Source of the DNA: Aquipuribacter nitratireducens
GTDB taxonomy: Bacteria; Actinomycetota; Actinomycetes; Actinomycetales; JBBAYJ01
Reading direction: 5' to 3'
Length of the DNA stretch: 64,000 nucleotides
Assembly (NCBI RefSeq): GCF_037860835.1
Contig: NZ_JBBEOG010000001.1
Span: 620,001 to 684,000 of the forward strand
Shown here: positions 14,772 to 59,816 of the stretch, in pieces
Position numbering within the stretch: position 1 is the first letter of the stretch
Layout of the letters: each line of letters begins with the position of its first letter
Program-made: the position numbers and the translations under genes
Notes under the pieces: model-generated
Database searches by the model: none
Told to the model about the DNA's origin: nothing
What the model saw: only the letters and a program-made list of their open reading frames with translations

Positions 14772-16091
14772 GTGGCACAGATCCAGCTGAAGAACATCGT
14801 CAAGGTCTACGGGGACGGCTTCGCGGCCGTCGACGACGTCAGCATCGACATCGACGACGGCGAGTTCGTCATCCTCGTCGGGCCGTCCGGGTCGGGGAAG
14901 TCGACGCTGCTGCGCATGATCGCCGGCCTGGAGGACATCACGTCCGGCGACCTCACCATCGGCGGCACCCGGGTCAACGAGAAGGCGCCGCGCGACCGCG
15001 GCCTCGCGATGGTCTTCCAGAACTACGCCCTGTACCCGCACCTCACGGTGTACGAGAACATCGCGTTCCCCCTGCGGCTCGCCAAGCACAGGATGAAGGA
15101 CGCCGACGTCGACGCCGCCGTCCGCAACGCCGCCGGGCTGCTGGAGCTGGAGGAGCACCTCGAGCGCAAGCCCGCCAACCTCTCCGGCGGGCAGCGCCAG
15201 CGCGTGGCCATGGGGCGGGCGCTGGTCCGGGAGGCCAACGCGTTCCTCTTCGACGAGCCCCTGTCGAACCTCGACGCCAAGCTGCGCGGGCAGATGCGGA
15301 CGGAGATCGCCCGGCTGCAGCGCCGGCTCGGCACGACGACGGTCTACGTCACGCACGACCAGACGGAGGCCATGACGCTCGGCGACCGCGTCGCCGTGCT
15401 GCGGCGCGGCGTGCTCCAGCAGGTCGCGAGCCCCCGCGAGCTGTACGAGCAGCCCGTCAACCTCTTCGTCGCCGGGTTCATCGGCTCCCCGCCGATGAAC
15501 TTCGTCCCCGGCCGGGTCGACGGCGGCACCCTCCACCTGCCGTTCGGCGACCTCCCGCTGCCGGAGGACATGGTGGCCGCCGTCGGCGACCGCGAGGTCG
15601 TGGTCGCGGGGGTCCGCCCCGAGCACTTCGAGGACGCGTCCCTCGTCGACGACGACCGCGAGGGCGGCGTGACGTTCGAGGCGGACGTCGACGTCACCGA
15701 GTGGCTCGGGGACGAGCTGTACGCGTACGTGCCGTTCGAGGCCGAGGGCGAGGTCCGGCAGAAGCTCGAGGACCTCGACCGCGAGCTCGACGGCGAGGGC
15801 ATGCGCACGCAGCTGGTCGTCGCGCTCGACGGGCAGAGCCGGGTGCGCGACGGGTCACGGGCCCGGCTGTGGCTCGACACGACCCGCATGCACCTGTTCG
15901 ACCCCGAGACGGGGGAGAACCTCACCCGGGACGAGGAGAAGGCCGCGCAGCTCGGCAAGGAGAGCGCCGACGCGCGACGGGAGGCGCTGGAGCGCGAGAA
16001 GCAGCACCGGGACGCCGCCGCGTCCGACGGCGGGCGCCCGCGCACCGTCGACGTGCGCGACCAGGGGCAGCGGACGGGCGCCCGGGCCTGA
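14772..16091 (+). CDS. Sugar ABC transporter ATPase (MsmK/UgpC/SugC-like)
   Basis: A 439-residue ATPase of the sugar-importer type. Walker A GPSGSGKST is near residue 37, the Q-loop lies in VFQNYALYPH, the signature LSGGQRQRVAMGRAL is near 137, Walker B is FLFDEPLSNLDAK near 160 and the switch His is in VTHDQTEAM. The C-terminal TOBE/MalK-like region (240-390) is followed by a charged tail of about 50 residues (DEEKAAQLGKESADARREAL) not needed for ATPase function. Starts at GTG 14772 with GGAG 8 bases upstream. Unusually for Gram-positives, the ATPase is encoded with its own importer rather than shared at a distant locus. Confidence 0.93.
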   Translation: MAQIQLKNIVKVYGDGFAAVDDVSIDIDDGEFVILVGPSGSGKSTLLRMIAGLEDITSGDLTIGGTRVNEKAPRDRGLAMVFQNYALYPHLTVYENIAFPLRLAKHRMKDADVDAAVRNAAGLLELEEHLERKPANLSGGQRQRVAMGRALVREANAFLFDEPLSNLDAKLRGQMRTEIARLQRRLGTTTVYVTHDQTEAMTLGDRVAVLRRGVLQQVASPRELYEQPVNLFVAGFIGSPPMNFVPGRVDGGTLHLPFGDLPLPEDMVAAVGDREVVVAGVRPEHFEDASLVDDDREGGVTFEADVDVTEWLGDELYAYVPFEAEGEVRQKLEDLDRELDGEGMRTQLVVALDGQSRVRDGSRARLWLDTTRMHLFDPETGENLTRDEEKAAQLGKESADARREALEREKQHRDAAASDGGRPRTVDVRDQGQRTGARA

Positions 16092-16098
16092 GCCCGGG
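16081..16098 (+). terminator. Hairpin at the end of the sugar importer operon
   Basis: Perfect 7-bp stem CCCGGGC (16081-16087)/GCCCGGG (16092-16098) with loop CTGA that contains the stop codon of the ATPase gene. It lies between the convergent ATPase and map genes. Confidence 0.5.
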
Positions 16099-16137
16099 TC
16101 GACCCGGCCCCGCGGCGCGCGGTCCGGCACCGGCGAC

Positions 16138-16908
16138 TCAGCGGGGGAGCGTCAGCACCTCGACGCCGTCCTCGGTCACCGCCACCGTGTGCTCGCTGTG
16201 CGCCGTCCGGCACCCGGTCGCGCTGCGCAGCGTCCAGCCGTCGTCGTCGACGACGAGCTCGTCGGTGTCCGCCATGACCCACGGCTCCAGCGCGAGCAGC
16301 AGCCCGGGTCGCAGGACGTACCCGCGCCCGGGCCGGCCGTCGTTCGGCACGTGCGGGTCCTGGTGCATCGTCGAGCCGACGCCGTGGCCACCGAACTCGG
16401 TGTTGACCGGGTGGCCCGCGCCCCGCAGCACCGTCCCGATGGCGTGCGAGAGGTCACCGATCCGCACCCCCGGTCCCGCGGCGTCGATCGCCGCGGCGAG
16501 GGCGCGCTCGGTCACCTCGACGAGCGGGTCGGGCGCCTCGTCCGGGCGCGCGCCGACGACGAAGCTGAGGGCCGAGTCGGCGACGACGCCGTGGAGGGAC
16601 ACCGCGAGGTCGAGCGACACGAGGTCGCCGTCGGCGAGCACCTGGTCGCGGGGGCGCCCGTGGAGGACCGCGTCGTTCACCGACGTGCAGACGTAGTGGC
16701 CGAAGGGCCCGCGGCCGAACGACGGCGCGTAGTCGACGTAGCACGACACGGCGCCCGCCGCCTCGATCATCCGCCGCGCCTCCGCGTCGAGCTCGAGGAG
16801 GTTCGTGCCCGGCGTGCTGCGTTCCCGCAGCGTCCGGAGGATGTCCGCGACCAGGGCGCCGGTCTCCCGGCCCCGGGCCACCTCGGCGGGCGACAGGAGC
16901 TCGATCAC
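16138..16908 (-). CDS. map: Methionine aminopeptidase, type I
   Basis: A 256-residue metallo-aminopeptidase that removes the initiator Met. The five metal ligands are visible: Asp in SLDLAVS, Asp in VVADSA, His in FGGHGVGSTMHQDPHV, Glu in LALEPW and Glu in AHSEHTVAV. The protein lacks the N-terminal zinc/SH3 extension of some actinobacterial MetAPs. The GTG at 16908 is the start; CAGGCT lies 7 bases upstream and GGAGGG abuts it. Not in an operon with ackA, which ends 47 bases upstream on the same strand. Confidence 0.93.
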   Translation of the reverse strand: MIELLSPAEVARGRETGALVADILRTLRERSTPGTNLLELDAEARRMIEAAGAVSCYVDYAPSFGRGPFGHYVCTSVNDAVLHGRPRDQVLADGDLVSLDLAVSLHGVVADSALSFVVGARPDEAPDPLVEVTERALAAAIDAAGPGVRIGDLSHAIGTVLRGAGHPVNTEFGGHGVGSTMHQDPHVPNDGRPGRGYVLRPGLLLALEPWVMADTDELVVDDDGWTLRSATGCRTAHSEHTVAVTEDGVEVLTLPR

Positions 16909-16955
16909 ACCCTCCAGCCTGCCGTACCCGGTGGCTCGTGCCCCCGGCGGCGCCC

Positions 16956-18179
16956 TCAGCCGCGCAGCAGGTCGAGGGCCTGGCGGGCGATCTCGCCCTC
17001 CTCGTCGGTCGGGACCACGAGAGCCGCGGCCGGGCTGCCGTCCTCGCTCAGCACCCCGACCTCACCGGGCTGCGAGGCCGCGGCGTCGTTGCGTCCCTCG
17101 TCGAGCCGCACCCCGAGCACGCCGAGGCCCCGGCAGACGTCGCGGCGCACCCGGGCGGAGTTCTCCCCGACCCCTGCGGTGAAGGCGAGCGCGTCGAGGC
17201 CGCCGAGGGCGACGGCGTAGGCGCCGACGTAGGCACGGATCCGGTAGGCGTACACCTCGAGCGCGAGACGGGCGTCGGTGTCGCCGCCGTCGGCCCGGCG
17301 CTCGACGTCGCGGAGGTCGCTGTCGCCGCACAGACCGCGCAGCCCGGACGCCGTGTTGAGCGCCGTCTCGACGGCCTCGGCGTCGAGCCCGGCGACCCGG
17401 CGCAGGTGCCCGGCCAGGGCGGGGTCGACCTCCCCGCTCCGGGTGCCCATGACGAGCCCGCCGAGCGGGGTCAGCCCCATCGACGTGTCGACGCTGCGCC
17501 CGCCGAGAACCGCGCACGCGCTCGCGCCGTTGCCGAGGTGGAGCACGACCACGCGCGAGGCCTCCGCCGGCACCCCGCGCTCGCGCGACAGCCACGCGGC
17601 GGCGGTCCGCGACACGTACGCGTGGGACGTGCCGTGAAAGCCGTAGCGGCGGACGCCGTGCTCCCGCCGCCAGTCGCCCGGCACCGCGTACGTGGCCGCA
17701 CCGGCCGGCATGTCGGCGTGGAAGGCCGTGTCGAAGACCGCGACGTGCGGGACGTCGGGGAAGCGGTCGCGCGCCGCCCGGATGCCCGCGGCGTTGACCG
17801 GGTTGTGGAGCGGCGCGAGCACCGCGAGCTCCTCGATCCGGGCGAGGACGGCGTCGTCGACGACGACCGGACCGGAGTGGTCCTCGCCGCCGTGGACGAC
17901 ACGGTGCCCGACCGCGGTGACGTCGTCGGCGGCTGGGCCGTGGGCGCGGATGGCGTCCGCGGCGACCAGCAGCGCGGCGGCGTGGTCGGGGGCGTCGACG
18001 GCCTCGCCGTCGACGGCCCGCCCGTGCGGCCCGTCGTGGCGCAGCCGGGCGCCGCCGGACCCGATCCGCTCGACGAGGCCGCCGCCGAGGCGCTGCGCCG
18101 GCGCCGTCGGGTCGTCGGAGGGCTCGAGCACGGCGTACTTCAGCGACGACGAGCCGGCGTTGACGACGAGGACGCTCAC
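16956..18179 (-). CDS. ackA: Acetate kinase
   Basis: A 407-residue acetate kinase interconverting acetate + ATP with acetyl phosphate. N-terminal VLVVNAGSSSLKYAVLE, the substrate loop VAVFDTAFHADMP, GTSHAYVSR, the ATP-site VLHLGNGASACAV and the C-terminal ALAFTAGVGENSARVRR are intact. The GTG start overlaps the stop of pta by 4 bases (18176-18179), so the two enzymes are co-translated in the order pta-ackA. Together they link acetyl-CoA and acetate. Confidence 0.96.
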   Translation of the reverse strand: MSVLVVNAGSSSLKYAVLEPSDDPTAPAQRLGGGLVERIGSGGARLRHDGPHGRAVDGEAVDAPDHAAALLVAADAIRAHGPAADDVTAVGHRVVHGGEDHSGPVVVDDAVLARIEELAVLAPLHNPVNAAGIRAARDRFPDVPHVAVFDTAFHADMPAGAATYAVPGDWRREHGVRRYGFHGTSHAYVSRTAAAWLSRERGVPAEASRVVVLHLGNGASACAVLGGRSVDTSMGLTPLGGLVMGTRSGEVDPALAGHLRRVAGLDAEAVETALNTASGLRGLCGDSDLRDVERRADGGDTDARLALEVYAYRIRAYVGAYAVALGGLDALAFTAGVGENSARVRRDVCRGLGVLGVRLDEGRNDAAASQPGEVGVLSEDGSPAAALVVPTDEEGEIARQALDLLRG

Positions 18180-39408: not shown

Positions 39409-40836
<1,428 letters not shown>

Positions 40837-40912: not shown

Positions 40913-42253
40913 TCAGCCGCGGGGCCGGCCGAGGGCTCGGTACGTCCACCCGGCCGCGCGCCAGCGGGCGGGGTCGAGGGCGTTGCGGCCGTCGAGCACC
41001 CGGCGGTGGGCGACCTTCGTCCCCAGCACCTCGGGGTCGAGGTCGCGGAACTCCCGCCACTCCGTGAGGAGCAGGACGACGTCGGCGTTCTCCACCGCCT
41101 CGTCGGCGCTGCTGCCGAAACGCAGGTCCGGCCACACCCGGCGGGCGTTCTCCACCGCCTGCGGGTCGTACACCGTCACGTGACCGCCCTGCAGGCGCAG
41201 CTGCGCGGCGACGTTGAGGGCGGGGGAGTCGCGGATGTCGTCGCTGTCGGGCTTGAACGCGGCGCCGAGCACGCCGATGCGACGCCCGAGCAGGGAGCCC
41301 TCGCACACCTCGCGCGTGAGCTCGACCATCCGCTGGCGGCGGCGCATGTTGATGTCGTCGACCTCGCGGAGGAACGTCAGCGCCTGGTCGGCGCCGAGCT
41401 CGCCGGCGCGGGCCATGAACGCACGGATGTCCTTCGGCAGGCACCCGCCGCCGAAGCCGAGGCCGGCGTTGAGGAACTTGCGGCCGATGCGCGCGTCGTG
41501 GCCGATGGCGTCGGCGAGCGCGACGACGTCGGCGTTCACCTTCTCGCACACCTCCGCCATCGCGTTGATGAACGAGATCTTCGTGGCGAGGAACGAGTTC
41601 GCGGCGACCTTGACGAGCTCCGCGGTCGCGTAGTCCGTCGTGACGAGCGGCGTGCCGGTGGACAGCGGCGTCGCGTAGACCTCGTCGAGCAGCGCCTTCG
41701 CCACCTCCCCGTCCGGCCCGTCGGGCAGGCCGTAGACGAACCGGTCGGGTGCGAGGGTGTCCTGCACGGCGAAGCCCTCCCGGAGGAACTCGGGGTTCCA
41801 CGCGAGCAGCGCGTGCTCGCCGTCGGGGAGGCCGTCGGCCACGAGGTCCGCCAGGCGCGCGGCCGTGCCGACGGGCACGGTCGACTTGCCGACGACGAGC
41901 GCGGGCGCCTCGCCCGTGCCGCGCAGTTGCGGGACGAGACCCTCGACGGCGGCGTCGACGTACGTGAGGTCGGCGGCGTACTCGCCCTTGCGCTGCGGGG
42001 TGCCGACGCACACGAAGTGGACGCGGGAGCCCGCCACCTCCGCCATGTCGGTGGTGAAGCGCAGCCGGCCGGTCGCCATCACCTTCTCGAGGAGCTCCGG
42101 CAGCCCGGGCTCGTAGAACGGGGCCTTGCCGGCGGCGAGCAGCTCGACCTTCGCGGGGTCGACGTCCACGCCGACGACCTCGTGGCCGAGGTCGGCCATG
42201 CAGGCGGCGTGGACGGCGCCGAGGTAGCCGCAACCGATGACGGAGATACGCAC
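40913..42253 (-). CDS. ugd: UDP-glucose 6-dehydrogenase
   Basis: A 446-residue enzyme oxidising UDP-glucose to UDP-glucuronate with two NAD. ISVIGCGYLGAVHAACMADLG is the NAD-binding start. FVCVGTPQ and VVGKSTVPVGTAA follow. The catalytic Cys (near 270) lies in LGFGGGCLPKDIRAF, and the C-terminal domain has GAAFKPDSDDIRDSPALNV. Residues match the UDP-glucose branch, but UDP-GlcNAc or GDP-mannose relatives are not fully excluded. TAGCGT lies 8 bases before GTG 42253. The product could feed the envelope glycans of neighbouring genes. Confidence 0.92.
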   Translation of the reverse strand: MRISVIGCGYLGAVHAACMADLGHEVVGVDVDPAKVELLAAGKAPFYEPGLPELLEKVMATGRLRFTTDMAEVAGSRVHFVCVGTPQRKGEYAADLTYVDAAVEGLVPQLRGTGEAPALVVGKSTVPVGTAARLADLVADGLPDGEHALLAWNPEFLREGFAVQDTLAPDRFVYGLPDGPDGEVAKALLDEVYATPLSTGTPLVTTDYATAELVKVAANSFLATKISFINAMAEVCEKVNADVVALADAIGHDARIGRKFLNAGLGFGGGCLPKDIRAFMARAGELGADQALTFLREVDDINMRRRQRMVELTREVCEGSLLGRRIGVLGAAFKPDSDDIRDSPALNVAAQLRLQGGHVTVYDPQAVENARRVWPDLRFGSSADEAVENADVVLLLTEWREFRDLDPEVLGTKVAHRRVLDGRNALDPARWRAAGWTYRALGRPRG

Positions 42254-43708: not shown

Positions 43709-45733
43709 ATGACGCACCTCCGCCGAGCCGCCGCGCTCGTCACCGCAACCGCGACCGTCGGGGGGCTCCTCGTCTTCGACGTCGTGTCGCTGCCGCAGCA
43801 GGGGGTGGCGCCGCGCGTCACGACCCTCGCCCTCGCGAGCGAGGTCGAGACGCTGCCGCCCGGCACGTCGCCCGGCGTCGACGCGGTCGGTGGCACGGGC
43901 ACGGTGACGACGCACCCGGTCCCCACGGACGACTTCACCCTCGTGGGGCTCACGTGGGACGAGGGCGACGCCCCCGGGCGGGTGGAGGTCCGCGTCCGCG
44001 AGGCCGACGGCTGGTCGGCGTGGACCCCGCTCGACCCGGTCGACGGCGGCCCGGACCCCGGCACCGAGGAGGCGGCGCTCGCCGCGGGGGTCACGGGCAC
44101 CGAGCCGCTCGTCACCGACGGCGCGGACGCCTTCCAGGTGCGCGTCGCCGGGACCGGACCCGACCTGCCGGAGAGCCTGACCGCGGCGGTCGTCGACCCC
44201 GGTGAGTCGCCCGCCGACGGCAGCGAGGTCACGGGGACGCCGCTCAGCGGTGCCGAGGCGGACCTCCTGCGTCCGCGGATCGTGCCCCGCTCCGCGTGGG
44301 GCGCCGACGAGTCGCTGCGCCGGTGCTCGCCGTCGTACTCCGCCGGCATCGAGGCCGCGACCGTGCACCACACGGCCGGCACGAACGGCTACTCGCGCGC
44401 CGCGAGCGCCGGCATCGTCCGGGGCATCTACGCGTACCACACGCAGTCGCTCGGCTGGTGCGACGTCGGCTACAACTTCCTCGTCGACCGCTTCGGCACC
44501 GTCTACGAAGGACGCGCGGGCGGCATCGCGAGCGCCGTCCGCGGCGCCCACGCCGGTGGGTTCAACGACCGCACCTTCGGTGTCTCCGCCATCGGCAACT
44601 ACGAGACAGCCGCCGCGCCGGAGGCGATGGTCCGCGCGATCGGGCAGGTGATCGGCTGGAAGCTGTCGCTGTTCGGTCGCAGCGCCGCGGGCACGACGGC
44701 GCTCACGTCCGCCGGGGGTAGCACGAGCCGCTACCCCTCGGGCCAGCGCGTGACGCTGCCGCGGGTGTTCGCGCACCGTGACGTCGGCATGACGGCGTGC
44801 CCCGGTCGCACCCTCGTCGCCGCGCTCGGCGCCGTGCGGGCCGAGGCGGGCCGCTACGGCGGCGCCCTCGCCTCCTCCACACGGCTGCTGCCGGTTCAGG
44901 CCGACGGCGACAGCGGCTCCGAGCTGCTGACCTACGATCCCGTGACGGGCGCCCAGCGGCTCGTCGACGTCGGCACCGACGGGCGGTCCGCGCCGCTGTC
45001 GAGCACGACGTGGTCGACGGGGTGGACGCACCTCGTGCCCGTCGAGGCGGACGGGTCGCCGGGTCAGGAGCTGCTGCTCTACGACCGCGCCGGCGGCCGT
45101 CAGGCCCTCCTCGACCTCGCCGGCGGGAAGGTCCGCACCCTGTCGAGCGTCACGTGGTCCCGGTCGTGGACCCACGTCGTCCCCGTCGAGTCGGACGGCA
45201 GCGGCGGCAGCGAGCTCGTCGTGTACAACGCGGCCAGCGGCCGCCAGCAGCTGCTCGACCTCGCCGGTGGCCGGGCGCGGACCGTCTCGAAGGTCGACTG
45301 GTCCCGCTCGTGGTCGCAGGTGACGGCCCTGGAGGCCGACGGCAGCGGCGGCAGCGAGGTCCTCGTGTACAACGCGGCGAGCGGTCGCCAGCAGCTCCTC
45401 GACCTCGTCGCGGGACGGGCCCGGACCCTCACCAAGGCGGACTGGTCGCCGGCGTGGAGCCACGTCGTGCCCGTGGAGGCCGACGGGAGCGCGGGCAGCG
45501 AGCTCGTCCTCTACAACCGGGCCTCGGGCCGGCAGGCGGTCATCGACACCCGCGGCGGCGGCGTCCGCACGATGTCGACGTCGGCCTGGTCGAGGGGATG
45601 GACGGAGGTCCTGGCCGTGGAGCTGGACCGGAGCGTACGCTCGGAGGTTCTCGTCTTCCAGGCAGCGACGCGACGGGCGGTGTACCTCGACATGGCAGTC
45701 AACGGCTCGACCCGCACCCTGGCCCAGCCATGA
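43709..45733 (+). CDS. Secreted N-acetylmuramoyl-L-alanine amidase (PGRP type) with C-terminal six-fold repeat domain
   Basis: A 674-residue exported protein. The signal peptide is RRAAALVTATATVGGLLVF. An accessory beta-rich segment (60-180) precedes the PGRP/amidase_2 domain at about 190-368: RIVPRSAWGADES, VHHTAGTNGYS, WCDVGYNFLVDRFGTVYEGR and FAHRDVGMTACPGRT, in which His, His and Cys bind zinc. It should cleave the muramoyl-alanine bond. Residues 392-674 are six repeats of 48 residues with the pattern ExDGxxGSELxxY...SGRQxxxD...RT...WSxxW. The same repeat occurs in the next protein. The stop overlaps its ATG (ATGA). Confidence 0.9.
   Translation: MTHLRRAAALVTATATVGGLLVFDVVSLPQQGVAPRVTTLALASEVETLPPGTSPGVDAVGGTGTVTTHPVPTDDFTLVGLTWDEGDAPGRVEVRVREADGWSAWTPLDPVDGGPDPGTEEAALAAGVTGTEPLVTDGADAFQVRVAGTGPDLPESLTAAVVDPGESPADGSEVTGTPLSGAEADLLRPRIVPRSAWGADESLRRCSPSYSAGIEAATVHHTAGTNGYSRAASAGIVRGIYAYHTQSLGWCDVGYNFLVDRFGTVYEGRAGGIASAVRGAHAGGFNDRTFGVSAIGNYETAAAPEAMVRAIGQVIGWKLSLFGRSAAGTTALTSAGGSTSRYPSGQRVTLPRVFAHRDVGMTACPGRTLVAALGAVRAEAGRYGGALASSTRLLPVQADGDSGSELLTYDPVTGAQRLVDVGTDGRSAPLSSTTWSTGWTHLVPVEADGSPGQELLLYDRAGGRQALLDLAGGKVRTLSSVTWSRSWTHVVPVESDGSGGSELVVYNAASGRQQLLDLAGGRARTVSKVDWSRSWSQVTALEADGSGGSEVLVYNAASGRQQLLDLVAGRARTLTKADWSPAWSHVVPVEADGSAGSELVLYNRASGRQAVIDTRGGGVRTMSTSAWSRGWTEVLAVELDRSVRSEVLVFQAATRRAVYLDMAVNGSTRTLAQP
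44884..45730 (+). repeat. Six 144-bp coding repeats in the amidase gene
   Basis: Units of 48 codons begin near LLPVQADGDSG, LVPVEADGSPG, VVPVESDGSGG, VTALEADGSGG, VVPVEADGSAG and VLAVELDRSVR; the first is one codon longer and the last is partial. Units three and four are most alike, including NAASGRQQLLDL in both, which suggests recent duplication. Confidence 0.85.
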
Positions 45734-47814
45734 GCCCGGGTGCCCGCGCACGGGGTGCGCACCGTCCCGCTCGTTCCCGCGGGGTCCGCGGCGTGCTCCT
45801 CGCCGTCGCCGCCCTCGTGCTCGCGCTCCTCGTGGCTCCGGCCGCGCACGCGGCGCCCGGCGACCTCGTCCTGGACGGCCGCGGGTTCGGCCACGGCCGC
45901 GGCATGGCCCAGTGGGGCGCCCAGGGCGCGGGCATCCGCGGTCTCACCCACCAGCAGATCCTCGGCTTCTACTACCCCGGCACCACCCTCGGCACGGTCC
46001 CGGGCGCCTCGGTCCGCGTCCTGCTGCGCACCCGCGCGTCGAGCGCCGTCGTGGAGTCGGCCGTCGCCGTCGTCGACAGCGCGACGGGACTGCGTGCCGA
46101 GCTGCCCGCGGGTGCGGTCGTGACGGCGGCCCGCACCACCGCGGGCGGCGTGCGCGTCACCGGCTCGACCGCCCTGACCGACCCGCGCTGGTCCGACGGC
46201 GTCGCGGGACCGGTGCGGCTCGAGGGCTCCGGCCTCACGTGGTTGCGCAACAGCGACGGCACCGCCGTCGGCTACCGCGGCGACCTCGTCGTCCACGCGG
46301 AGACGACGAGCGGCGTCGCGGTCGTCAACAGCCTCGACCGCGAGCTCTACCTCTACAGCGTCGTGTCGAAGGAGATGCCGGCGTACTTCGAGCCGGCTGC
46401 CCTGCGCTCCCAGGCCGTCGCGGCCCGCTCGTACTCCACGTTCGACTGCTCCGGCGGCGACCCCCGCGCCGACCTGCGGCCGACCACCGACTGCCAGGTC
46501 TACGGCGGTCGCGCCACCCGGTCCGCCGGCGGGGCCGTGACCTCGGTCGAGCAGTCGAGCGTGCGCTCCGCCGTGGACGCGACCGCCCGCGTCGTCGTGC
46601 TGCGATCCGGGTCGCCGCTGCGGACCGAGTTCAGCTCGAGCAACGGCGGCCGGACCGCGGAGAGCGTCCTCGGCCCCGCGAAGGACGACCCCTACGACGG
46701 CGTCGACCCCCGCAACACCAACCACGAGTGGACGACGACCGTCCCCGCCTCGCGCGTGGAGGCGGCGTTCCCCGCCATCGGCACCTTCACGGCCCTCGAG
46801 GTCCGCACCCGCAGCGGCGGGGGCGAGTGGGGCGGGCGCGCGGAGGAGGTCGCGGTCCACGGCACCGGCGGGACGGTCGTCACGACCGGCCTCGACGTCC
46901 GGCTGCGGCTCGGCCTCCGTTCGACGTGGTTCGAGCCGCAGGTCAGCGGCACCCCACTGTCCGACGTCCTCCTGTACCGCCCCGACTCCGGCTCCCGGCA
47001 GGTCCTCGACGTCCTCCCGGGCGGCGACTTCCGCACGCTGTCGACCGGCGGCTGGTCGGCGGGCTGGGACGTCACCGCCCTCGAGGCGGACGGCACCCCG
47101 GGCGCCGAGGCGCTCCTCTACGACCCCGTCACCGGCTCCCACGCGGTCGTCGACGCCCGACCCGACGGCCTGACCCCGACCCTGTGGACCGGCACGTGGA
47201 GCACCGGGTGGGACGCCACGGCCATCGAGGCCGACGGCACCCCCGGCTCCGAGCTCCTCCTCTACCGCGCCTCGTCCGGGTCCCGGCACGTCCTCGACGT
47301 GCTGCCCGGCGGCGGGTTCCGCACGCTCGCGACGGGCTCGTGGTCGGCCGGGTGGGACGTCGAGGCGGTGGAGTCCGACGGCTCCGTCCGCTCGGAGGTC
47401 CTCGTGTACAACCCCGACCGCGGGTACCGCTACCTCCTCGACGTCCTGCCGGGCGGCGGCTTCCGCACCCTCGACGGCGGCCCGTGGTCGACCGGGTGGG
47501 ACATCACGCCGATGGAGGCGGACGGGACCGCGGGCTCCGAGCTCCTGCTGTACCGGTCCTCGTCCGGTTCCCGGCAGGTGCTCGACGTGCTGCCGGGCGG
47601 CTTCCGGACCCTGTCGTCCGGCACGTCGTGGACGACGGACTGGGACATCACGGCGTTCGAGGCCGACGGCAGCGCGGGCTCCGAGCTCCTGCTGTACCGG
47701 GCGTCGTCGGGCTCCCGGCAGGTGCTCGACGTGCTGCCGGCCGGGTTCCGGACGCTGTCGTCGGGCTCGTCGTGGACCACCGGCTGGGACGTGACGGCCC
47801 TGGACGCGGGCTGA
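45730..47814 (+). CDS. Secreted SpoIID/LytB-domain protein with the same C-terminal six-fold repeat domain
   Basis: A 694-residue exported protein. The signal peptide ends near VAPAAHAAPGD. The SpoIID domain spans about 40-390: GFGHGRGMAQWGAQGAG, LYLYSVVSKEMPAYF, LRSQAVAARSYSTFDC, TTDCQVYGG and FSSSNGGRTA, where Glu in SKEMP matches the catalytic Glu of SpoIID glycan-strand lytic enzymes. Residues 407-694 hold six 48-residue repeats. The first repeat lacks its opening strand and the protein ends with that strand (WDVTALDAG), as in circularly closed beta-propellers. It is co-translated with the amidase. Confidence 0.88.
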   Translation: MSPGARARGAHRPARSRGVRGVLLAVAALVLALLVAPAAHAAPGDLVLDGRGFGHGRGMAQWGAQGAGIRGLTHQQILGFYYPGTTLGTVPGASVRVLLRTRASSAVVESAVAVVDSATGLRAELPAGAVVTAARTTAGGVRVTGSTALTDPRWSDGVAGPVRLEGSGLTWLRNSDGTAVGYRGDLVVHAETTSGVAVVNSLDRELYLYSVVSKEMPAYFEPAALRSQAVAARSYSTFDCSGGDPRADLRPTTDCQVYGGRATRSAGGAVTSVEQSSVRSAVDATARVVVLRSGSPLRTEFSSSNGGRTAESVLGPAKDDPYDGVDPRNTNHEWTTTVPASRVEAAFPAIGTFTALEVRTRSGGGEWGGRAEEVAVHGTGGTVVTTGLDVRLRLGLRSTWFEPQVSGTPLSDVLLYRPDSGSRQVLDVLPGGDFRTLSTGGWSAGWDVTALEADGTPGAEALLYDPVTGSHAVVDARPDGLTPTLWTGTWSTGWDATAIEADGTPGSELLLYRASSGSRHVLDVLPGGGFRTLATGSWSAGWDVEAVESDGSVRSEVLVYNPDRGYRYLLDVLPGGGFRTLDGGPWSTGWDITPMEADGTAGSELLLYRSSSGSRQVLDVLPGGFRTLSSGTSWTTDWDITAFEADGSAGSELLLYRASSGSRQVLDVLPAGFRTLSSGSSWTTGWDVTALDAG
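46948..47811 (+). repeat. Six coding repeats in the SpoIID-domain gene
   Basis: Codon units of 48 begin near VTALEADGTPG, ATAIEADGTPG, VEAVESDGSVR, ITPMEADGTAG and ITAFEADGSAG; the first unit (GTPLSDVLLY) is N-terminally short and the last strand (VTALDAG) closes the set. The consensus matches that in the upstream amidase gene. Confidence 0.85.
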
Positions 47815-47922
47815 GCGCACGTCCCGTCCCGTGCTCCGGTGCGTCCCGGTGCCCCGGCGACGCGGCGGTCCGGCGCGCGCGGTGGCGCACGCCGGACCGT
47901 GGCCGTGGCAGGCTTCCTGCTC

Positions 47923-48903
47923 GTGCCACGCGCCCTCGTCACCGGGATCACCGGCCAGGACGGCCTCTACCTCTCCGAGCTCCTGCTCGGGAAGGGCTAC
48001 GAGGTGTTCGGCCTCATCCGCGGCCAGAACAACCCGAAGGCCGACCTCGTCCGCCGGACCGTCCCGGACGTCACGCTGCTCACCGGTGACCTCACCGACC
48101 TGTCGAGCCTGCTGCGCGCCATGGCGGTGGCCGACCCGGACGAGGTCTACAACCTCGGGGCCATCTCCTTCGTCGCGTACTCGTGGGAGAACGCCCACCT
48201 CACGACCGAGGTGACGGGCAAGGGCGTCCTCAACATGCTCGAGGCCGTCCGCCTCCACGCCCACGACGACACCTCGCGCGTCCGCTTCTACCAGGCGTCG
48301 AGCTCGGAGATGTTCGGCCGCGTGCAGGAGGTTCCGCAGCGGGAGACGACCCTGCTGTGGCCGCGGTCCCCGTACGGCGTCGCGAAGGTGTACGGGCACT
48401 ACATGACGATCAACTACCGCGAGTCGTACGGCATGCACGCCTCCAGCGGCATCCTCTTCAACCACGAGTCCCCGCGCCGCGGCGTGGAGTTCGTCACCCG
48501 CAAGGTGTCCCGCGCCGTCGCCCGGATCGCCCTCGGCCTGCAGGACTCCGTCACCCTCGGCAACCTCGACGCGCGACGCGACTGGGGCTTCGCGGGGGAC
48601 TACGTCGAGGCGATGTGGTGCATGCTCCAGCAGGAGGTCGCCGACGACTACGTCGTCGCGACCGGGCACACGCACTCCATCCGCGAGCTGCTCGACGTCG
48701 CGTTCGCCCACGTCGGTGTCGACGACTGGTCGGGCCTCGTCCGGCAGGACAAGGCCCTGCTCCGTCCGGCGGAGGTCGACCTGCTCGTGGGGGACGCGAG
48801 CAAGGCCCGCGAGAAGCTCGGCTGGAGCCCGCGGGTCCGCTTCGAGGAGCTCGTCCGCATGATGGTCGACCACGACCTCGCCGAGCAGCGGGCCGGCGGC
48901 TGA
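47923..48903 (+). CDS. gmd: GDP-mannose 4,6-dehydratase
   Basis: A 326-residue extended SDR converting GDP-mannose to GDP-4-keto-6-deoxymannose. NADP motif [33 protein letters not shown], catalytic region [31 protein letters not shown] with Tyr-xxx-Lys, and [18 protein letters not shown] are conserved. The GTG at 47923 gives the family length; earlier in-frame codons encode an Arg-rich leader. It is followed by a second SDR after 1 base. Confidence 0.9.
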
Positions 48904-48904
48904 C

Positions 48905-49867
48905 GTGCCCCGCGCGCTCGTCACCGGCGTCACCGGCCAGGACGGCAGCTACCTCGCGGAGCGCCTCCTCGCCGAGGGCTGGGCGGTCGACGGGCTCGTA
49001 CGGGCCGGTGACACCGCCGGCACCCTCGTGCCGGGGGTGACGGTCCACCACGGCGACCTCGCCGAGCCCGGGCTGTTCCGGCGCCTGCTGCCCGAGGCGA
49101 GCCCCGACGTCGTGTTCCACCTCGGCGGGCTGTCGTCGGTGGCGCGGTCGTGGCAGGACCCGGGCCTCACCGCGGACGTCACCGGGGCGGCGACCGCCCG
49201 GCTGCTCGGTGCGGCCCACGCGCTCGGCGCGTCGTGCCCCCGGGTCGTCGTCGCGAGCAGCGCCGAGGTCTTCGCCGGGTCCGGTGTCGTGCCGCAGGAC
49301 GAGAGCACCCCGGTGTCGCCGACCTCCCCGTACGGGGCGGCGAAGGCGTACACCCTCCACCTCGCGCGCACGTACCGCGCGGCGGGCCGCTTCGTCAGCG
49401 CCGCCGTCCTCTACAACCACGAGTCGCCGCGACGACCCCACACGTTCGTCACCCGGACGATCACCCGGGGCGTCGCCTCCCTCGTCCTCGAGGGCGGTCC
49501 CGCTCTACGGCTCGGCAACCTCGCCGCCGTCCGGGACTGGGGCTGGGCGCCGGACTACGTCGAGGCCATGCACCGCATGGCCCTCGCGGACGAGCCGGGC
49601 GACTTCGTGGTCGCGACCGGGCGCGGCCACACGGTCGAGGACTTCGTCGCGGCCGCGTTCGCCGCCGCCGGCGTGCACGACTGGCGCGAGCACGTGGAGA
49701 CCGACCCGACCCTCTTCCGGCCCGTCGACGGACCCGCGCTCGTCGGTGACGCCACACGGGCCCGGGAGGTGCTGGGGTGGACCCCGACGCGCGGCTTCGA
49801 CGACGTCGTCCGCGCGATGGTGGAGGCGGACCTCGCGCGGGTGCGCTCCGGCCCCGCCACGCCCTGA
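48905..49867 (+). CDS. GDP-mannose 4,6-dehydratase family SDR (GMD or RMD-like)
   Basis: A 320-residue paralogue of the preceding enzyme. VTGVTGQDGSYLAERLLAEG, HLGGLSSVARSWQDPG, VASSAEVFAGSGVVPQ, SPTSPYGAAKAYTLHLAR and YNHESPRRPHTFVTRTI are all present, so the Tyr-Lys pair and the Glu are kept. Gmd and its SDR partner Rmd, which reduces the 4-keto sugar to GDP-D-rhamnose, often sit in tandem, so this could be the reductase. It could also be a second dehydratase; sequence alone does not decide. GTG start. Confidence 0.82.
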   Translation: MPRALVTGVTGQDGSYLAERLLAEGWAVDGLVRAGDTAGTLVPGVTVHHGDLAEPGLFRRLLPEASPDVVFHLGGLSSVARSWQDPGLTADVTGAATARLLGAAHALGASCPRVVVASSAEVFAGSGVVPQDESTPVSPTSPYGAAKAYTLHLARTYRAAGRFVSAAVLYNHESPRRPHTFVTRTITRGVASLVLEGGPALRLGNLAAVRDWGWAPDYVEAMHRMALADEPGDFVVATGRGHTVEDFVAAAFAAAGVHDWREHVETDPTLFRPVDGPALVGDATRAREVLGWTPTRGFDDVVRAMVEADLARVRSGPATP

Positions 49868-55531: not shown

Positions 55532-56996
55532 TCACGCGGCTCGGCGGGCGCGCGCGGCGCGCTGCCGCGGCGCCGGTCGTGGTCGGCGACAGGGATCCAC
55601 CCAGCGCGGCGGCGTGACCCACACGTGTCCGCTGTCGTCGATCGAGATCTCCCAGACGCCCGCGTGGACGGCGGTGTGGTGCGCCGGGCACAGCAGGCAC
55701 AGGTTGCCCACGTCGGTGTCGCCGCCGTCGATCCAGTGCCGGACGTGGTGGGCGTCTTACGCCACGGGGGGAGCGCTGCAGCCGGGGACGACGCACCCGT
55801 GGTCACGGCCCCCGAGGGCGCGGCGCTGCGCGCGCGAGGCGAGCCGGACGCTCCGTCCCAGGGACAGCGGGCCCTTCCTCGGGTGCGGCGACGAGCCTCG
55901 GCAGCGTCGCGTCGCAGGCCAGGGCACGGGTTGCCCACGTGGGGAGCGGGGCGCCGCCCTCGGCCTCCGCGAGCCCGACGGGCAGGCTCCTCACCGCGTC
56001 GGGCTCCCCGACGCCGTCCTCCAGCAGCGCCCGCCGGATCGCGGCGGCGCCCGCCGGCTGCTCCGGTGTCGTGTGCACGACGACCCGGGCCGGTTCGCAG
56101 CGCCGCCACGCACGGCCCTCCGGTGTCGCGAGGGCGAGCCGCAGGGCGTGGGCGAGGCCGTCGGCGCGGCGCTGCCGGGCCTCGCGACGGTCCGCGGCCG
56201 CGAGCCGGCTGGTGCCCTCCCCGCAGGTGATCCCGTCCGGTCCGACGACCTCGGTCGCGGTGTCCGGGTCGACCTCCGCGCCCGGGCCTCCGGGAGCCGC
56301 CCAGCGTTCGAGGGCCGTCCGCAGCAGCGCGCCGGTCACCGGGTCGAGCTGGAAGCGACCGACCGTCATGCCGGTGGCGTCCGTGGCGAGGTCGAGCAGC
56401 CGCCGGCGGTGCGCCTGCTCGTCGCGTCGGTCCTCGGGGTCGGGGGCGAGCGTGGCGAGGAGGTGCCGCGCGGCGCGCTCGAGGTCGGCCGGGGTCGCGT
56501 CGGCGGCCGCATCGAGGAGGTACCCGGACACCGCCTGCGCGGCGCCCGGCCGGTCGAGCAGCGCCTCGGGCAGTCGCTCGAGGCAGCGCGTCGCGACGTC
56601 GACGTGGCGACGACTCACCCTCCCGGCCGCCAGCTCGGCGCCGAAGCGGGCAAGCGGTGCCCGGGGGGAGGTGGCGCGGGTGGCCGCGACGTCACGACGG
56701 GCTTCGCCGGCGGTGAGGAGGCACGCGCTGCGGAGGAGCCCCTCGGGTGTGGTGGCGACGGTCGAGGAGGTGGCGACTCCCCGGCTGTCGACCTCGCGGA
56801 CGAGGGACAGGTGGATCGAGTCCAGCGCCGCTCTGATTCTCGCGAGCCGACCGACGGCGTCGACCACGTCCCTGTCGGACGTGCGCCAGGCGGTGTCCGC
56901 AGCCGGGAGCCCTGCGACGTCGTCGACCGCCGTCGCCGCGGCGTCGAGCGCGACGGCCAGCGGTGCCCACGACCGGTCCTCCGACTCCCGCTTCAC
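55532..56996 (-). pseudogene. Broken DUF222/13E12-family HNH endonuclease gene
   Basis: The DUF222 part (residues 1-380) is open from GTG 56996, with GGAGG upstream, to a stop at 55803. The HNH part is in another frame. After CDATLPRLVAAPEEGP the reading shifts near 55867-55872 (one extra G, or two missing bases) to LSLGRSVRLASRAQRRALGG and GCVVPGCSAPPVA. It then meets an in-frame TAA (55757-55759) and continues with DAHHVRHWIDGGDTDVGN, CLLCPAHHTAVHAG to the stop at 55532. The HNH residues are recognisable, so the break is recent or is a sequencing error. A LexA box lies 31 bases upstream. The family is common in mobile-like copies in actinobacteria. Confidence 0.85.
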
Positions 56997-57026
56997 CGGC
57001 TCCCCCTCCTCCGGCCTCCAGCCTAC

Positions 57027-57042
57027 TCGAACACCTGTTCGA
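57027..57042. promoter_or_regulatory. LexA (SOS) box
   Basis: TCGAACACCTGTTCGA is a perfect TCGAAC-N4-GTTCGA palindrome, the mycobacterial-type LexA site. It is 30 bases from the HNH gene start and 28 bases from the RmlD-like gene start, and covers the presumed -35 region of the latter. 13E12-family genes are known SOS genes in M. tuberculosis. Confidence 0.85.
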
Positions 57043-57058
57043 TGACAAGAGGTGTCGC

Positions 57059-57064
57059 TACCCT
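57059..57064 (+). promoter_or_regulatory. -10 element of the RmlD-like gene
   Basis: TACCCT ends 6 bases before GTG 57071. The LexA box ends 16 bases upstream of it. Confidence 0.5.
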
Positions 57065-57070
57065 CCCGCC

Positions 57071-57976
57071 GTGGACGTCCTCGTGATCGGTGCCTCGGGA
57101 CTCCTCGGGACCGACCTCGTCACGGCGCTGCTGGAGGCCGACCACGAGGTGACCGGGCTCGGTCAGAGCGAGCTCGACGTCCGCACCCTCGCCGTCGACG
57201 ACGAGGACGCCGTCCGTCACGCCGTCGGCGGCCACGACGTCGTCGTCGACGCCGCCGGTCTGCCGCCCGAGGCCGCGGAGCGGCACCCGTCGCTCGCCTT
57301 CGACGTCGACGCCGTCGGGGCCCAGCTCGTCGCGGCGGCGTGCGCACGCACGGGCACCCGGCTCGTCCACGTCTCGAGCGCCGACGTCGTCGCGGGTCAC
57401 CCGCAGGGCTCGCCGGTGCCGGTGACGGCGCCGTTGCGACCCCTCGGAGCCCACGGGCGGGCGCACGCCGCGGGGGAGTGGGCCGTGCGCGCCAGCGGCG
57501 CCGACGCCCTCGTCGTGCGGGCCGGCTGGCTCTACGGCGCCCACGGCGACTGCCTGCCACGCATGCTCGCGGCACTCGCCCGCGAGACGGACGCGCTGCG
57601 GGTCCCCGCGTCGTGGGCGGGGCAGCCGACGTGGACGGTCGACGTCGCGCGCGTCGTCGTCGGCCTGCTGGAGGTCGGGGCCCCCGCCGGGGTCTACCCC
57701 GCGTCCGCCATGGGGTGGACGGACCGGTTCGGCTGGGCGCTGGAGGTGTGGGAGTCGCTGGGCCGGGACCTCGACCTGCTCGAGCCGGTCGAGGGGGAGG
57801 ACCCCGGCGACGACCACGACGACCACGACCACCACGTTGAGCACGACGGTCCCGTGGAGCCGCCGGGCTGGTCCGTCCTCGCGCCCCAGCCGCTGCGGCG
57901 CCTCGGCGTCGAGCCCGTCGGCCCCTGGCGGCTGCGGTGGCAGGAGGCGGCCGACGAGGTCCTCGCCGGCCTCTGA
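57071..57976 (+). CDS. RmlD-like SDR with altered active site
   Basis: A 301-residue extended SDR of the dTDP-4-dehydrorhamnose reductase type: VLVIGASGLLGTDLVTALL (NADPH), DVVVDAAGLPPEAAE, LVHVSSADVVAG and VVRAGWLYGAHGD. The expected catalytic YGxxKxxGE reads HGRAHAAGE, so both the Tyr and the Lys are His. A His/Asp-rich insertion (DDHDDHDHHVEHDG, near residue 255) is also unlike RmlD. It may be an NAD(P)-binding protein without rhamnose activity. The neighbouring LexA box may make it DNA-damage responsive. rmlD is found in this neighbourhood in mycobacteria. Confidence 0.78.
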   Translation: MDVLVIGASGLLGTDLVTALLEADHEVTGLGQSELDVRTLAVDDEDAVRHAVGGHDVVVDAAGLPPEAAERHPSLAFDVDAVGAQLVAAACARTGTRLVHVSSADVVAGHPQGSPVPVTAPLRPLGAHGRAHAAGEWAVRASGADALVVRAGWLYGAHGDCLPRMLAALARETDALRVPASWAGQPTWTVDVARVVVGLLEVGAPAGVYPASAMGWTDRFGWALEVWESLGRDLDLLEPVEGEDPGDDHDDHDHHVEHDGPVEPPGWSVLAPQPLRRLGVEPVGPWRLRWQEAADEVLAGL

Positions 57977-58001
57977 GCCCGCGACCGGCCCGGCCGGGGG
58001 T

Positions 58002-58697
58002 TCAGGCCCGCTCGGCGAGCTCCTGCCGGGCGAGCCGCTCGAGCGCGGCGGGGTCGAGCCCGTCGTGCCACACCACGGACCCGCCGTCCGCCCAGACGGC
58101 GAGCAGGTCGAGCGGGCCGGCGTCGGGGCCCAGCAGCGCCCGCCGCCCGCCCGCGAGCGACGGTGCCGGCGCCGCGCCCGCCGCCCCGGGTGGCAGCTCG
58201 TCGGGGTGCAGCCTCACCTCGGCGGCGTAGTCCACCCAGCCGAGGGTCGCGACGCGGGCGTCGTCCGCGCGCGCGGCCAGCGCCGACGTCGGCACCACGA
58301 GGACGTCGGCCCCCGCGCTCCCGCCGGGCACGTCCGCGCCCTCCGCGACCACGAGGACGTCCGCGCCGACCGCGTCCCCGGCCGGGTCGGCGGCGGTGTC
58401 GGGCGCGGGGCCGGCGGTCCCGGCCGCAGCGCCCAGGTGCCACGCCGCGAGCCACAGCACGGGTGCGCGCCACGAGGCGCCGAGGGCCGTGACGAGCGAG
58501 CCCCCCGCGCCGAGGTCGCAGTCGACCGCGAGCAGGTGAGCGGACTTGGCCACCCAGTTGACGAGCACGCGGCCCGACAGCTCCACCCGCTCGCCGGACC
58601 GCGACACCCACGTGAGCCGCGGCTGCGGCTCGACGGTGAGCGCGTGCAGCAGGCGGGGGACGTCGACGGGCGCCGGTTCGGGGGCGTGCGAGGTCAC
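58002..58697 (-). CDS. TIGR03089 family protein
   Basis: A 231-residue protein of the actinobacterial TIGR03089 type, which resembles a fragment of an adenylating-enzyme fold: LTWVSRSGERVELSGRVLVNW, AKSAHLLAVDCDLGAGGSLV, WRAPVLWLAAWHLGAA, then LLAVWADGGSVVWHDGLD at the C-terminus. Function is unknown. An equivalent lies next to the LCP gene in mycobacteria. The GTG start at 58697 is preceded by CAGGCT 7 bases upstream. A longer in-frame reading to 59510 runs antisense through the glycosyltransferase and is rejected. Confidence 0.8.
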   Translation of the reverse strand: MTSHAPEPAPVDVPRLLHALTVEPQPRLTWVSRSGERVELSGRVLVNWVAKSAHLLAVDCDLGAGGSLVTALGASWRAPVLWLAAWHLGAAAGTAGPAPDTAADPAGDAVGADVLVVAEGADVPGGSAGADVLVVPTSALAARADDARVATLGWVDYAAEVRLHPDELPPGAAGAAPAPSLAGGRRALLGPDAGPLDLLAVWADGGSVVWHDGLDPAALERLARQELAERA

Positions 58698-58772
58698 GCC
58701 CCCGAGCCTGCCACCTGCCGGCGGGCCCGCCTCCGGCACCTCGGCGTGGCGGGGACGCCCAGGTCGCGCGGA

Positions 58773-58778
58773 TACGCT
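58773..58778 (+). promoter_or_regulatory. -10 element of the GT2 gene
   Basis: TACGCT, 9 bases before ATG 58788, a transcript with at most a few leader bases. Confidence 0.45.
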
Positions 58779-58787
58779 GGGCGCCAC

Positions 58788-59816
58788 ATGGACGAGACCA
58801 GCACGGGGGAGCGCAGCCCCCTCACCGCCTCCGGCCCGGCCGCCACCGCGCCACACGGCCCCGACCGGGCCGTCGAGCGCGCCGTGGAGCGCGCCGTCGA
58901 GCAGGCCTTCGACGACGAGCGCGCCACGCGCGTCACCGCGACCGTCGTCCTGCCCTGCTACAACGAGCAGGACCACGTGCTGGAGGAGATCGAGCGCATC
59001 AGCGCGGCCCTGGACGCCGACGGCATGTCGTACGAGCTGCTCGTCATCGACGACGCCTCGACCGACGACACGCTGGCGGTCCTCCGGGCCGCGCAGGCGC
59101 AGTACCCCCGCATGCGGCTGCTGCCGTTCCGCCGCAACGGCGGCGCCGGCACCGCCCGCCGCATCGGCACCCGGGAGGCCCGCGGCGAGATCGTCGTGTG
59201 GACCGACGCCGACATGACGTACCCCAACGAGCGGATCCCCGAGCTCGTCCGGGAGGTCCTCGACGACCCGTCCATCGACCAGGTGGTCGGCGCGCGCCTC
59301 ACCGAGGAGGGCACGCACCGCTGGGCGCGGGTGCCGGCGAAGTGGCTCATCCGCAAGTTCGCCGAGGTGCTGACCAAGCAGCGCATACCCGACCTCAACT
59401 CGGGGCTGCGGGCCTTCCGCCGCGACGTCGCCCTGCCCTACCTGCGCCTGCTGCCGCCGGGCTTCTCGTGCGTGACGACGCTGACGATCTCGTTCCTGTC
59501 GAACCAGCACGACATCCGCTACGTCCCGATCGAGTACAAGAAGCGCTCCGGGGTGTCGAAGTTCAAGTTCTTCCGCGACGCCTACCGCTACCTGCTCCAG
59601 GTGCTCCGCATGGTCATGTACTTCGACCCGCTGCGCGTGCTCCTGCCCGTCGCGCTCGTCCTGCTCGGCCTCGGCACCGCGAAGCTCGTCTACGACCAGT
59701 TCCAGGCGCTGTTCAGCCTCGCCGACAACACCGTCCTCATCCTGCTGAGCGGGCTCCTCATCGGCATGATGGCCCTGCTGGCCGACCTCATCGTCCGGTC
59801 GCGGGACAGCCCCTGA
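58788..59816 (+). CDS. Family 2 glycosyltransferase with two C-terminal membrane segments
   Basis: A 342-residue GT-A glycosyltransferase. ATVVLPCYNEQDHVLEEIERI starts the fold, VIDDASTDDT and VVWTDADMTYPNERIP (DxD-like DAD) bind the nucleotide sugar and metal, and LNSGLRAFRRDVALPYLRLL follows. Two membrane segments lie near residues 280 and 315 (VLLPVALVLLGLGTAKLVYD and TVLILLSGLLIGMMALLADL). The layout is that of dolichol/polyprenyl-phosphate mannosyl- or glucosyltransferases. It is followed by an LPG-synthase-type membrane protein, possibly its partner. Confidence 0.9.
   Translation: MDETSTGERSPLTASGPAATAPHGPDRAVERAVERAVEQAFDDERATRVTATVVLPCYNEQDHVLEEIERISAALDADGMSYELLVIDDASTDDTLAVLRAAQAQYPRMRLLPFRRNGGAGTARRIGTREARGEIVVWTDADMTYPNERIPELVREVLDDPSIDQVVGARLTEEGTHRWARVPAKWLIRKFAEVLTKQRIPDLNSGLRAFRRDVALPYLRLLPPGFSCVTTLTISFLSNQHDIRYVPIEYKKRSGVSKFKFFRDAYRYLLQVLRMVMYFDPLRVLLPVALVLLGLGTAKLVYDQFQALFSLADNTVLILLSGLLIGMMALLADLIVRSRDSP

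Follow-up and report, generated by a model that had tools for sequence, protein, structure and literature searches.

In the genome of Aquipuribacter nitratireducens, a PGRP-type N-acetylmuramoyl-L-alanine amidase and a SpoIID/LytB-type protein are encoded by adjacent genes and end in the same six-fold repeat of about 48 residues, predicted to fold as a six-bladed beta-propeller. Both genes lie within a stretch of 64,000 nucleotides from contig NZ_JBBEOG010000001.1 (assembly GCF_037860835.1, positions 620,001 to 684,000 of the forward strand), referred to here as the window. Across actinobacteria this pair of enzymes carries many modules (FG-GAP types, LGFP, CWB2, DUF4214 and others), and the modules on the two partners usually match. 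We consider it probable that the window proteins form a secreted pair that cuts peptidoglycan sequentially, both members being held by a propeller lectin for the cell's own wall glycopolymer. The best explanation of the pair would then be that it is an actinobacterial counterpart of LytC/LytB of B. subtilis. This reading builds on the common repeats, the conserved catalytic residues and the matched modules in relatives, which were observed in this analysis, and on a predicted fold.

The amidase gene occupies 43709..45733 and the SpoIID gene 45730..47814, both on the plus strand, as open reading frames (ORFs) of 674 and 694 amino acids; the start of the second overlaps the stop of the first in ATGA (45730-45733). 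The first protein belongs to Pfam Amidase_2 (PF01510, 56.2 bits against a cut-off of 26, residues 214-367). The second is a member of the SpoIID/LytB family, scoring 143.7 bits with TIGR02669 SpoIID_LytB (cut-off 83.3) and 68.7 bits with PF08486 of Pfam (cut-off 23). His220, His221, Tyr255, His356 and Cys364 of the amidase, which we take to be its metal or catalytic residues, each recur unchanged in 44 or all of the 45 amidases aligned. Glu215 of the SpoIID protein (46372..46374, plus strand), located in a KEMP motif that aligns with ASEM of SpoIID 4rwr, is Glu in all 128 aligned SpoIID domains and is presumably the catalytic Glu. Read by eye, the N termini of both proteins resemble signal segments.

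The repeat array of the amidase covers residues 392-674 (44882..45730, plus strand), with units starting at residues 392, 440, 488, 536, 584 and 632 and measuring 48, 48, 48, 48, 48 and 43 residues. That of the SpoIID protein covers residues 407-694 (46948..47811, plus strand) and consists of a 40-residue unit without an opening strand, followed by 48-residue units and the last eight residues, DVTALDAG (47788..47811, plus strand). Splitting by regular expression cut units 2 and 3 of this tail into 44 and 52 residues, which in register are 48 and 48. Self-identity at a lag of 48 residues reaches 48% in the amidase tail and 58% in the SpoIID tail, compared with maxima of 16.3% and 15.9%, respectively, over 1000 shuffles of each (lags 30-69). 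A hidden Markov model (HMM) built from only four amidase units recovered six units from the SpoIID protein at E 1e-67, with no match in any of 200 shuffled copies. The acidic loop of the repeat reads mostly ExDGxxGSE. A repeat common to both proteins had been proposed in a first-pass annotation of the window; lag-48 identity and the cross-matching HMM confirm it, and the coordinates given there were correct to within a few bases. The interpretation attached to it held in part, differing from claim to claim.

A closed propeller was one of these claims, and structure prediction of residues 392-674 and 407-694 bears it out. Alignments of 15 and 12 tails, taken from the own genome and from genome G001, were used for AlphaFold2 models of the SpoIID and amidase arrays, respectively. 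The amidase model has a mean pLDDT of 91.6, a pTM of 0.88 and 24 strands (6 x 4), and the SpoIID model a mean pLDDT of 87.6, a pTM of 0.85 and 24 strands (3 + 5x4 + 1). With propellers as the best fold matches, prediction supports assigning both arrays to the six-bladed beta-propellers. In the amidase model the opening strand belongs to the array itself, and no velcro closure is needed. In the SpoIID protein the first repeat had been said to lack its opening strand, and blade 1 indeed has three strands in the model; the strand pattern is also that expected if DVTALDAG supplies the fourth as a velcro strand. Closure itself is weakly predicted, however, as the closing strand (model residues 288-293) lies within blocks of mean pLDDT 66 and 54.

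Foldseek returned lactonase-type and other propellers as first matches (best E 3.0e-10 and 5.7e-11). With VIA-align, the top solved match of both models was UmbA4 in complex with teichuronic acid from S. griseus (9oee): Z 22.3 over 281 residues at rmsd 3.0 for the amidase model (next entry 18.2), and Z 22.2 over 290 residues at rmsd 3.3 for the SpoIID model (next entry 17.6). UmbA4 thus leads by 4 or more Z units for both predicted models, which gives them an UmbA-like fold. UmbA proteins are lectins of the Streptomyces umbrella toxins (9oee, 8w20), and the window propellers differ from them in having wall enzymes as partners and in showing 13% identity to UmbA4. The N-terminal trypsin-like domain of UmbA was not found by Pfam in the two full window proteins. 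Passages of PMC13274773 describe that domain as having no complete triad and UmbA as targeting competitors; they describe the UmbA4 propeller as six-bladed and as binding a wall polymer, with single substitutions in the binding sites impairing targeting (section 12). The VCBS-type tails on the SpoIID proteins of two relatives match chain C of 8w20/8w22 by sequence (E 9.2e-14 and 2.2e-10); the deposition record describes these entries as umbrella-particle structures, and chain C would appear to be UmbA1.

By sequence, the nearest curated model to the window repeat is PA5033_fam (NCBIfam NF052506), at 40.9 and 25.6 bits and thus below the cut-off of 100 bits. The similarity covers amidase residues 436-655 (E 1.1e-10), and as none of nine places in the own genome scores above the cut-off, the repeat falls outside this family. 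In the part of one study that treats it, PA5033 is said to be of unknown function, and a passage of PMC8516228 has it modelled as a lectin. This model and the position of UmbA4 as top match of both propellers together support a lectin reading, even if a fold match by itself is no demonstration of function. Alternatively, the propellers could bind each other or a common protein, and matching would then reflect protein-protein contact and not a common glycan. Propellers often do bind protein, and LytB (CwbA) of B. subtilis is reportedly called, in the title of a study, a modifier that stimulates amidases. We regard such a scaffold as improbable, given that the same module occurs on unrelated proteins of the genome, that the outstanding fold match is a glycan-bound lectin, and that the matched modules of relatives include CWB2 and SLH, which bind wall polymers.

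The first-pass annotation had also taken the repeat for a distant FG-GAP/VCBS blade. Like FG-GAP/VCBS repeats (PF01839, PF13517), it has blades of about 48 residues and, by eye, a similarly placed acidic loop, and in relatives the same two enzymes carry FG-GAP/VCBS modules. The proposal finds no support in the sequence, however: the isolated repeat regions match no Pfam family at E up to 10, and profile-profile comparison (hhalign) with VCBS-type and FG-GAP-W-type tails gave probabilities of 1.3% and 0.1%, from shallow alignments and with low power. The calcium loop of FG-GAP/VCBS is DxDxDG, in place of which the window repeat has mostly ExDGxxGSE. On the Pfam and hhalign results, FG-GAP/VCBS was rejected as the family of the repeat and kept as a likeness at the level of fold. 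A 408-amino-acid ORF beside a VCBS-type SpoIID gene in another stretch (L098:8356-8844, plus strand) has units with a DLDGDGQDE loop and a YTRGWD outer strand; judged from their sequence, these may represent a form between FG-GAP and the window repeat. Several Pfam matches were considered spurious products of repetition, namely EAD8 on the full amidase (E 0.00023, below cut-off), DUF2239 on an ORF of stretch L043, and Peptidase_S6 and DUF2415 on stretch L046, which exceed the cut-off yet with no stretch (0) passing alone.

For the survey of relatives, the SpoIID protein was used as a query in 59 genomes (the own genome and relatives; 28 with a match), and PF08486 was searched at two ranks, with matches in 150 of 296 genomes from the class and in 126 of 297 from the order. 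A related-locus search with the SpoIID protein led from 27 matching stretches to one confirmed locus. The 132 stretches analyzed were chosen by hand, five of them for other repeat genes. Among the 128 SpoIID proteins in the stretches and the window, 36 share their stretch with a PGRP amidase, 7 are fused to one in a single ORF and 85 lack one there, in stretches that vary in length and in some cases stop at a contig end. Regardless of module kind, 29 neighbouring pairs out of the 36 have C-terminal tails of 100 amino acids or longer on both proteins; the amidase tail matches the tail of its own partner with E 1.3e-13 or better in all but one of them (28 of 29, the exception being G019). Some module kinds were named by Pfam on examples (LGFP, DUF4214, CWB2, FG-GAP_3, SLH), and others, such as FG-GAP-W, are labels made for this analysis. 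Distant amidases were collected by searching for the amidase domain in 60 chosen genomes, where it was present in 25 of 30 and 23 of 30.

Counted with N-terminal modules included, the module kind is identical on both partners in 28 of the 31 comparisons between neighbours and in 39 of the 51 that involve distant amidases, or 67 of 82 in total. The 82 comparisons represent 73 genomes, 40 genera and 23 families, and 60 of the 73 genomes have at least one matched comparison. Omitted before counting were three rows that duplicated linked pairs, five pairs in which the SpoIID protein has no recognised module (G318, G352, G035, G447, G043), three amidases with absent or cut tails (G368, G138, G427) and two amidase places without a given locus (G493, G138); some distant tails in the count end with the fetched locus, and a module further on could be missed. 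When partners were shuffled over the whole set, 12.3 matches were expected, and the 67 seen were reached in 0 of 20000 shuffles. Shuffling within families raised the expectation to 52.3 (reached in 0 of 20000), and within genera to 60.6 (53 of 20000). Six families (f1, f14, f18, f47, f9, f20) each have two or three matched kinds. Pfam places CWB2 on both partners in L133 and L134, and in G140 an SLH-bearing SpoIID protein is matched by the amidase tail at 1.4e-31, a tail that also scored with the FG-GAP-W model. In family f10, SpoIID proteins with N-terminal S-layer-homology-like domains were seen in L067 (by PDB sequence match) and L108 (by eye). No PGRP amidase was found at E up to 1e-8 in G045, G391, G404 and G456.

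Matching of this kind could arise without any selection for it, if the tails of neighbouring genes were copied or transferred on one segment. The genus of the window offers a case that fits. Genomes G000 and G001 have the propeller on the SpoIID protein, on the neighbouring amidase and on a second amidase, and G002, of the same genus, has DUF4214 on all three; DUF4214 is absent from G000 and G001 at E up to 1e-5. In their catalytic domains the neighbouring amidases of G001 and G002 share 73% and 71% identity with that of the window and group with the window genus (support 95*), and the SpoIID protein of G002 falls with the one from G012, which likewise has DUF4214 (99*). Searched with the SpoIID query, G002 gives a single match at E up to 0.001, which spans the catalytic part. 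From these trees and identities, G002 seems to have retained the catalytic domain of its amidase while acquiring a new tail for it, and its SpoIID protein looks to have been replaced; the discordance could be explained by one transferred segment spanning the amidase tail and the SpoIID gene. In G003, moreover, the amidase and SpoIID tails are sisters (99*). As a general cause such neutral recombination is nevertheless unlikely, seeing that amidases distant from the SpoIID gene still match in 39 of 51 comparisons, that matching is seen in amidase-first, SpoIID-first and convergent gene orders (taken only from loci without long open-frame overlap, with L047 as amidase first), and that seven genomes have the module N-terminally on SpoIID and C-terminally on the amidase (G401, G427, G498, G362, G373, G412, G432).

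On quick trees of 28 pairs, the distribution of modules requires 7 changes for SpoIID and 9 for the amidase. In a six-row tree of tails, the SpoIID protein and the neighbouring amidase of G000 join with a support of only 84, and the second amidase of G000 pairs with its orthologue in G001 (98*). In the four g8 genomes, the tails of the amidases and those of the SpoIID proteins fall into separate clades. This orthologous grouping and the separate clades argue against steady homogenisation, and local gene conversion was rejected on the same grounds as the sole cause of matching.

The window genome carries the repeat on further proteins. It was found on a second PGRP amidase, encoded on a different contig, on a YkuD-type L,D-transpeptidase with four units (L043:11777-14197, minus strand), on a secreted protein with five near-identical C-terminal units that appears nuclease-like by eye, without Pfam support (L046:2567-4051, plus strand), and in single-strand clusters of secreted-looking ORFs that consist of the repeat only (L043:4908-9220 and 14878-17299, plus strand, and L045). 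Such a distribution would be expected if each genome had one favoured surface module that spread by duplication over its secreted proteins, with no special partnership of amidase and SpoIID, and the matching of distant amidases would be expected as well. Among 30 genomes, DUF4214 is present in three, all of which have it on SpoIID; LGFP is present in seven, on SpoIID in five (not in G435 and G282); and FG-GAP_3 is present in nine, with the VCBS kind on SpoIID in five (not in G000, G002, G432 and G147). As a control, the best NlpC/P60 ORF per genome has none of nine modules (0 of 30 genomes), a count that takes in the best locus per genome only, with some of these cut and with G432's own kind outside the nine. 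Three other NlpC ORFs (G002, G362, G401) do share an open frame with the house module, that of G002 with DUF4214, judging by coordinates. Amidase, LGFP and NlpC/P60 lie together in single frames of 909 and 995 amino acids in G362 (C2, about 1050020-1051720) and G401 (C1, about 3059509-3061140).

With DUF4214, LGFP and FG-GAP_3 often accompanied by the corresponding module on SpoIID, and in view of these NlpC frames, matching depends in part on the genome, which keeps the spread of a favoured module in play as a rival, if a rather doubtful one. Apart from the empty NlpC control, it is opposed by seven single open frames in which a PGRP amidase and SpoIID are fused (L062, L081, L131, L132, L145, L164, L173), as these point to partnership.

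Similar combinations of enzymes are known elsewhere. In the engulfment pair SpoIIP/SpoIID, an amidase and a SpoIID-type enzyme act on the same wall; the window pair differs in the family of its amidase, in having no engulfment context and in consisting of module-bearing, secreted-looking proteins. LytC (CwlB) and LytB (CwbA) of B. subtilis also combine an amidase with a SpoIID homologue, and both carry the same kind of repeat, in their case CWB2. The two are said to resemble each other in sequence, as Kuroda reportedly found in 1992, which is a precedent for the window pair. Some actinobacterial pairs use CWB2 in the same way (L133 and L134, above). The window pair departs from LytC/LytB in that its amidase is of the Amidase_2/PGRP type, its shared module is a propeller and, according to Pfam, neither protein contains CWB2. 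In its relevant passages, PMC10653849 lists LytC under Amidase_3 and SpoIID as a lytic transglycosylase; the latter is followed here, and a passage of PMC7985256 has the roles of SpoIID and SpoIIP reversed. Among the titles listed from the open-licence PMC literature, none describes matched modules, and no account was found there of a concerted anchor exchange across a class.

The window pair is set among genes that resemble those for wall glycopolymers. Upstream on the minus strand are a LytR-CpsA-Psr (LCP) family protein (39409..40836, PF03816, 148.9 bits), of a family that ligates glycopolymers to peptidoglycan, and a member of the UDP-glucose/GDP-mannose dehydrogenase family (40913..42253, PF03721, PF00984, PF03720). 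Downstream on the plus strand are two GDP-mannose 4,6-dehydratase-like genes (47839-48903 and 48905-49867, PF16363, 409 and 298 bits), an RmlD-like gene (56963-57976, PF04321) and a family 2 glycosyltransferase (57837-59816, PF00535). Relatives of the dehydrogenase or dehydratases lie in 15 of 35 neighbouring-pair stretches, compared with 3 of 85 SpoIID-only stretches, a difference uncorrected for kinship in which 8 of the 15 loci come from one family (f8).

If the pair is a lectin-anchored one, as we consider probable, the zinc amidase would strip the glycan strands of their stem peptides, leaving bare glycan that the SpoIID-type enzyme would then cleave, or help to cleave. The order of the two reactions is drawn by analogy from SpoIIP/SpoIID, in which the amidase precedes SpoIID. 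The common propeller would act as a lectin that recognises the glycopolymer of the cell's own wall, be it a teichuronic-acid-like or some other secondary polymer, and would hold both enzymes at the same wall zone. Lineages would differ in anchor, presumably because their wall polymers differ, and the anchor would be replaced on both partners together. The shared anchor suggested by the first-pass annotation thus stands as a general pattern, with matched modules in relatives; the lectin activity, its ligand and the co-localisation or joint action of the pair are what we infer, and the module is also found on proteins other than peptidoglycan enzymes.

Several points weigh against this reading. 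Besides the low identity of the arrays to UmbA4, UmbA4 was absent among the 50 Foldseek matches listed for either model, and a search of PDB sequences by a profile of the repeat missed it, returning nothing under E 0.5. Fifteen of the 82 comparisons mismatch, three of them neighbouring (G019, G521, G403) and the others distant (G065, G067 twice, G219, G383, G514, G200, G113 twice, G024, G260, G545), and the mismatching G024 amidase is only about 6 kb from its SpoIID gene; the five neighbouring pairs omitted for a SpoIID protein without any recognised module come on top of these. The compared rows are related species, a kinship that the shuffles lessen without abolishing, and for neighbouring pairs only the within-family shuffle is weaker (382 of 20000). 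The nuclease-like and repeat-only carriers in the window genome, which are not peptidoglycan enzymes, the limits of the NlpC control together with its three counterexamples, and the share of f8 among the sugar-nucleotide loci count in the same direction. Finally, a passage of PMC10653849 lists LytB of B. subtilis as not hydrolysing peptidoglycan, so the SpoIID partner might be an enhancer and not an enzyme.

Should the lectin-anchored pair hold true, the amidase/SpoIID combination would become a readable system, in which constant enzymes carry exchangeable anchors that stay matched between the partners. It would predict the cell's own wall polymer as the ligand of DUF4214, of the 48-residue propeller and of LGFP, and matching modules would offer a signal, independent of gene neighbourhood, for secreted proteins that act at the same wall site. 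Wall growth would also be linked to the hypervariable teichuronic acids, which have recently been shown to be receptors of umbrella toxins (in a passage of PMC13274773). More tentatively, each actinobacterial lineage may have one house lectin on its wall-opening enzymes that is matched to its own fast-changing wall glycopolymer, such that a change of polymer leads to joint replacement of the anchors on the amidase, on SpoIID and on other wall proteins. The anchor type of a genome would then report its polymer, and the polymer might change, for example, under pressure from umbrella toxins or from phages that use it as a receptor. Such a change would be visible within a single genus, in the propeller of G000 and G001 versus the DUF4214 of G002, on SpoIID and both amidases.

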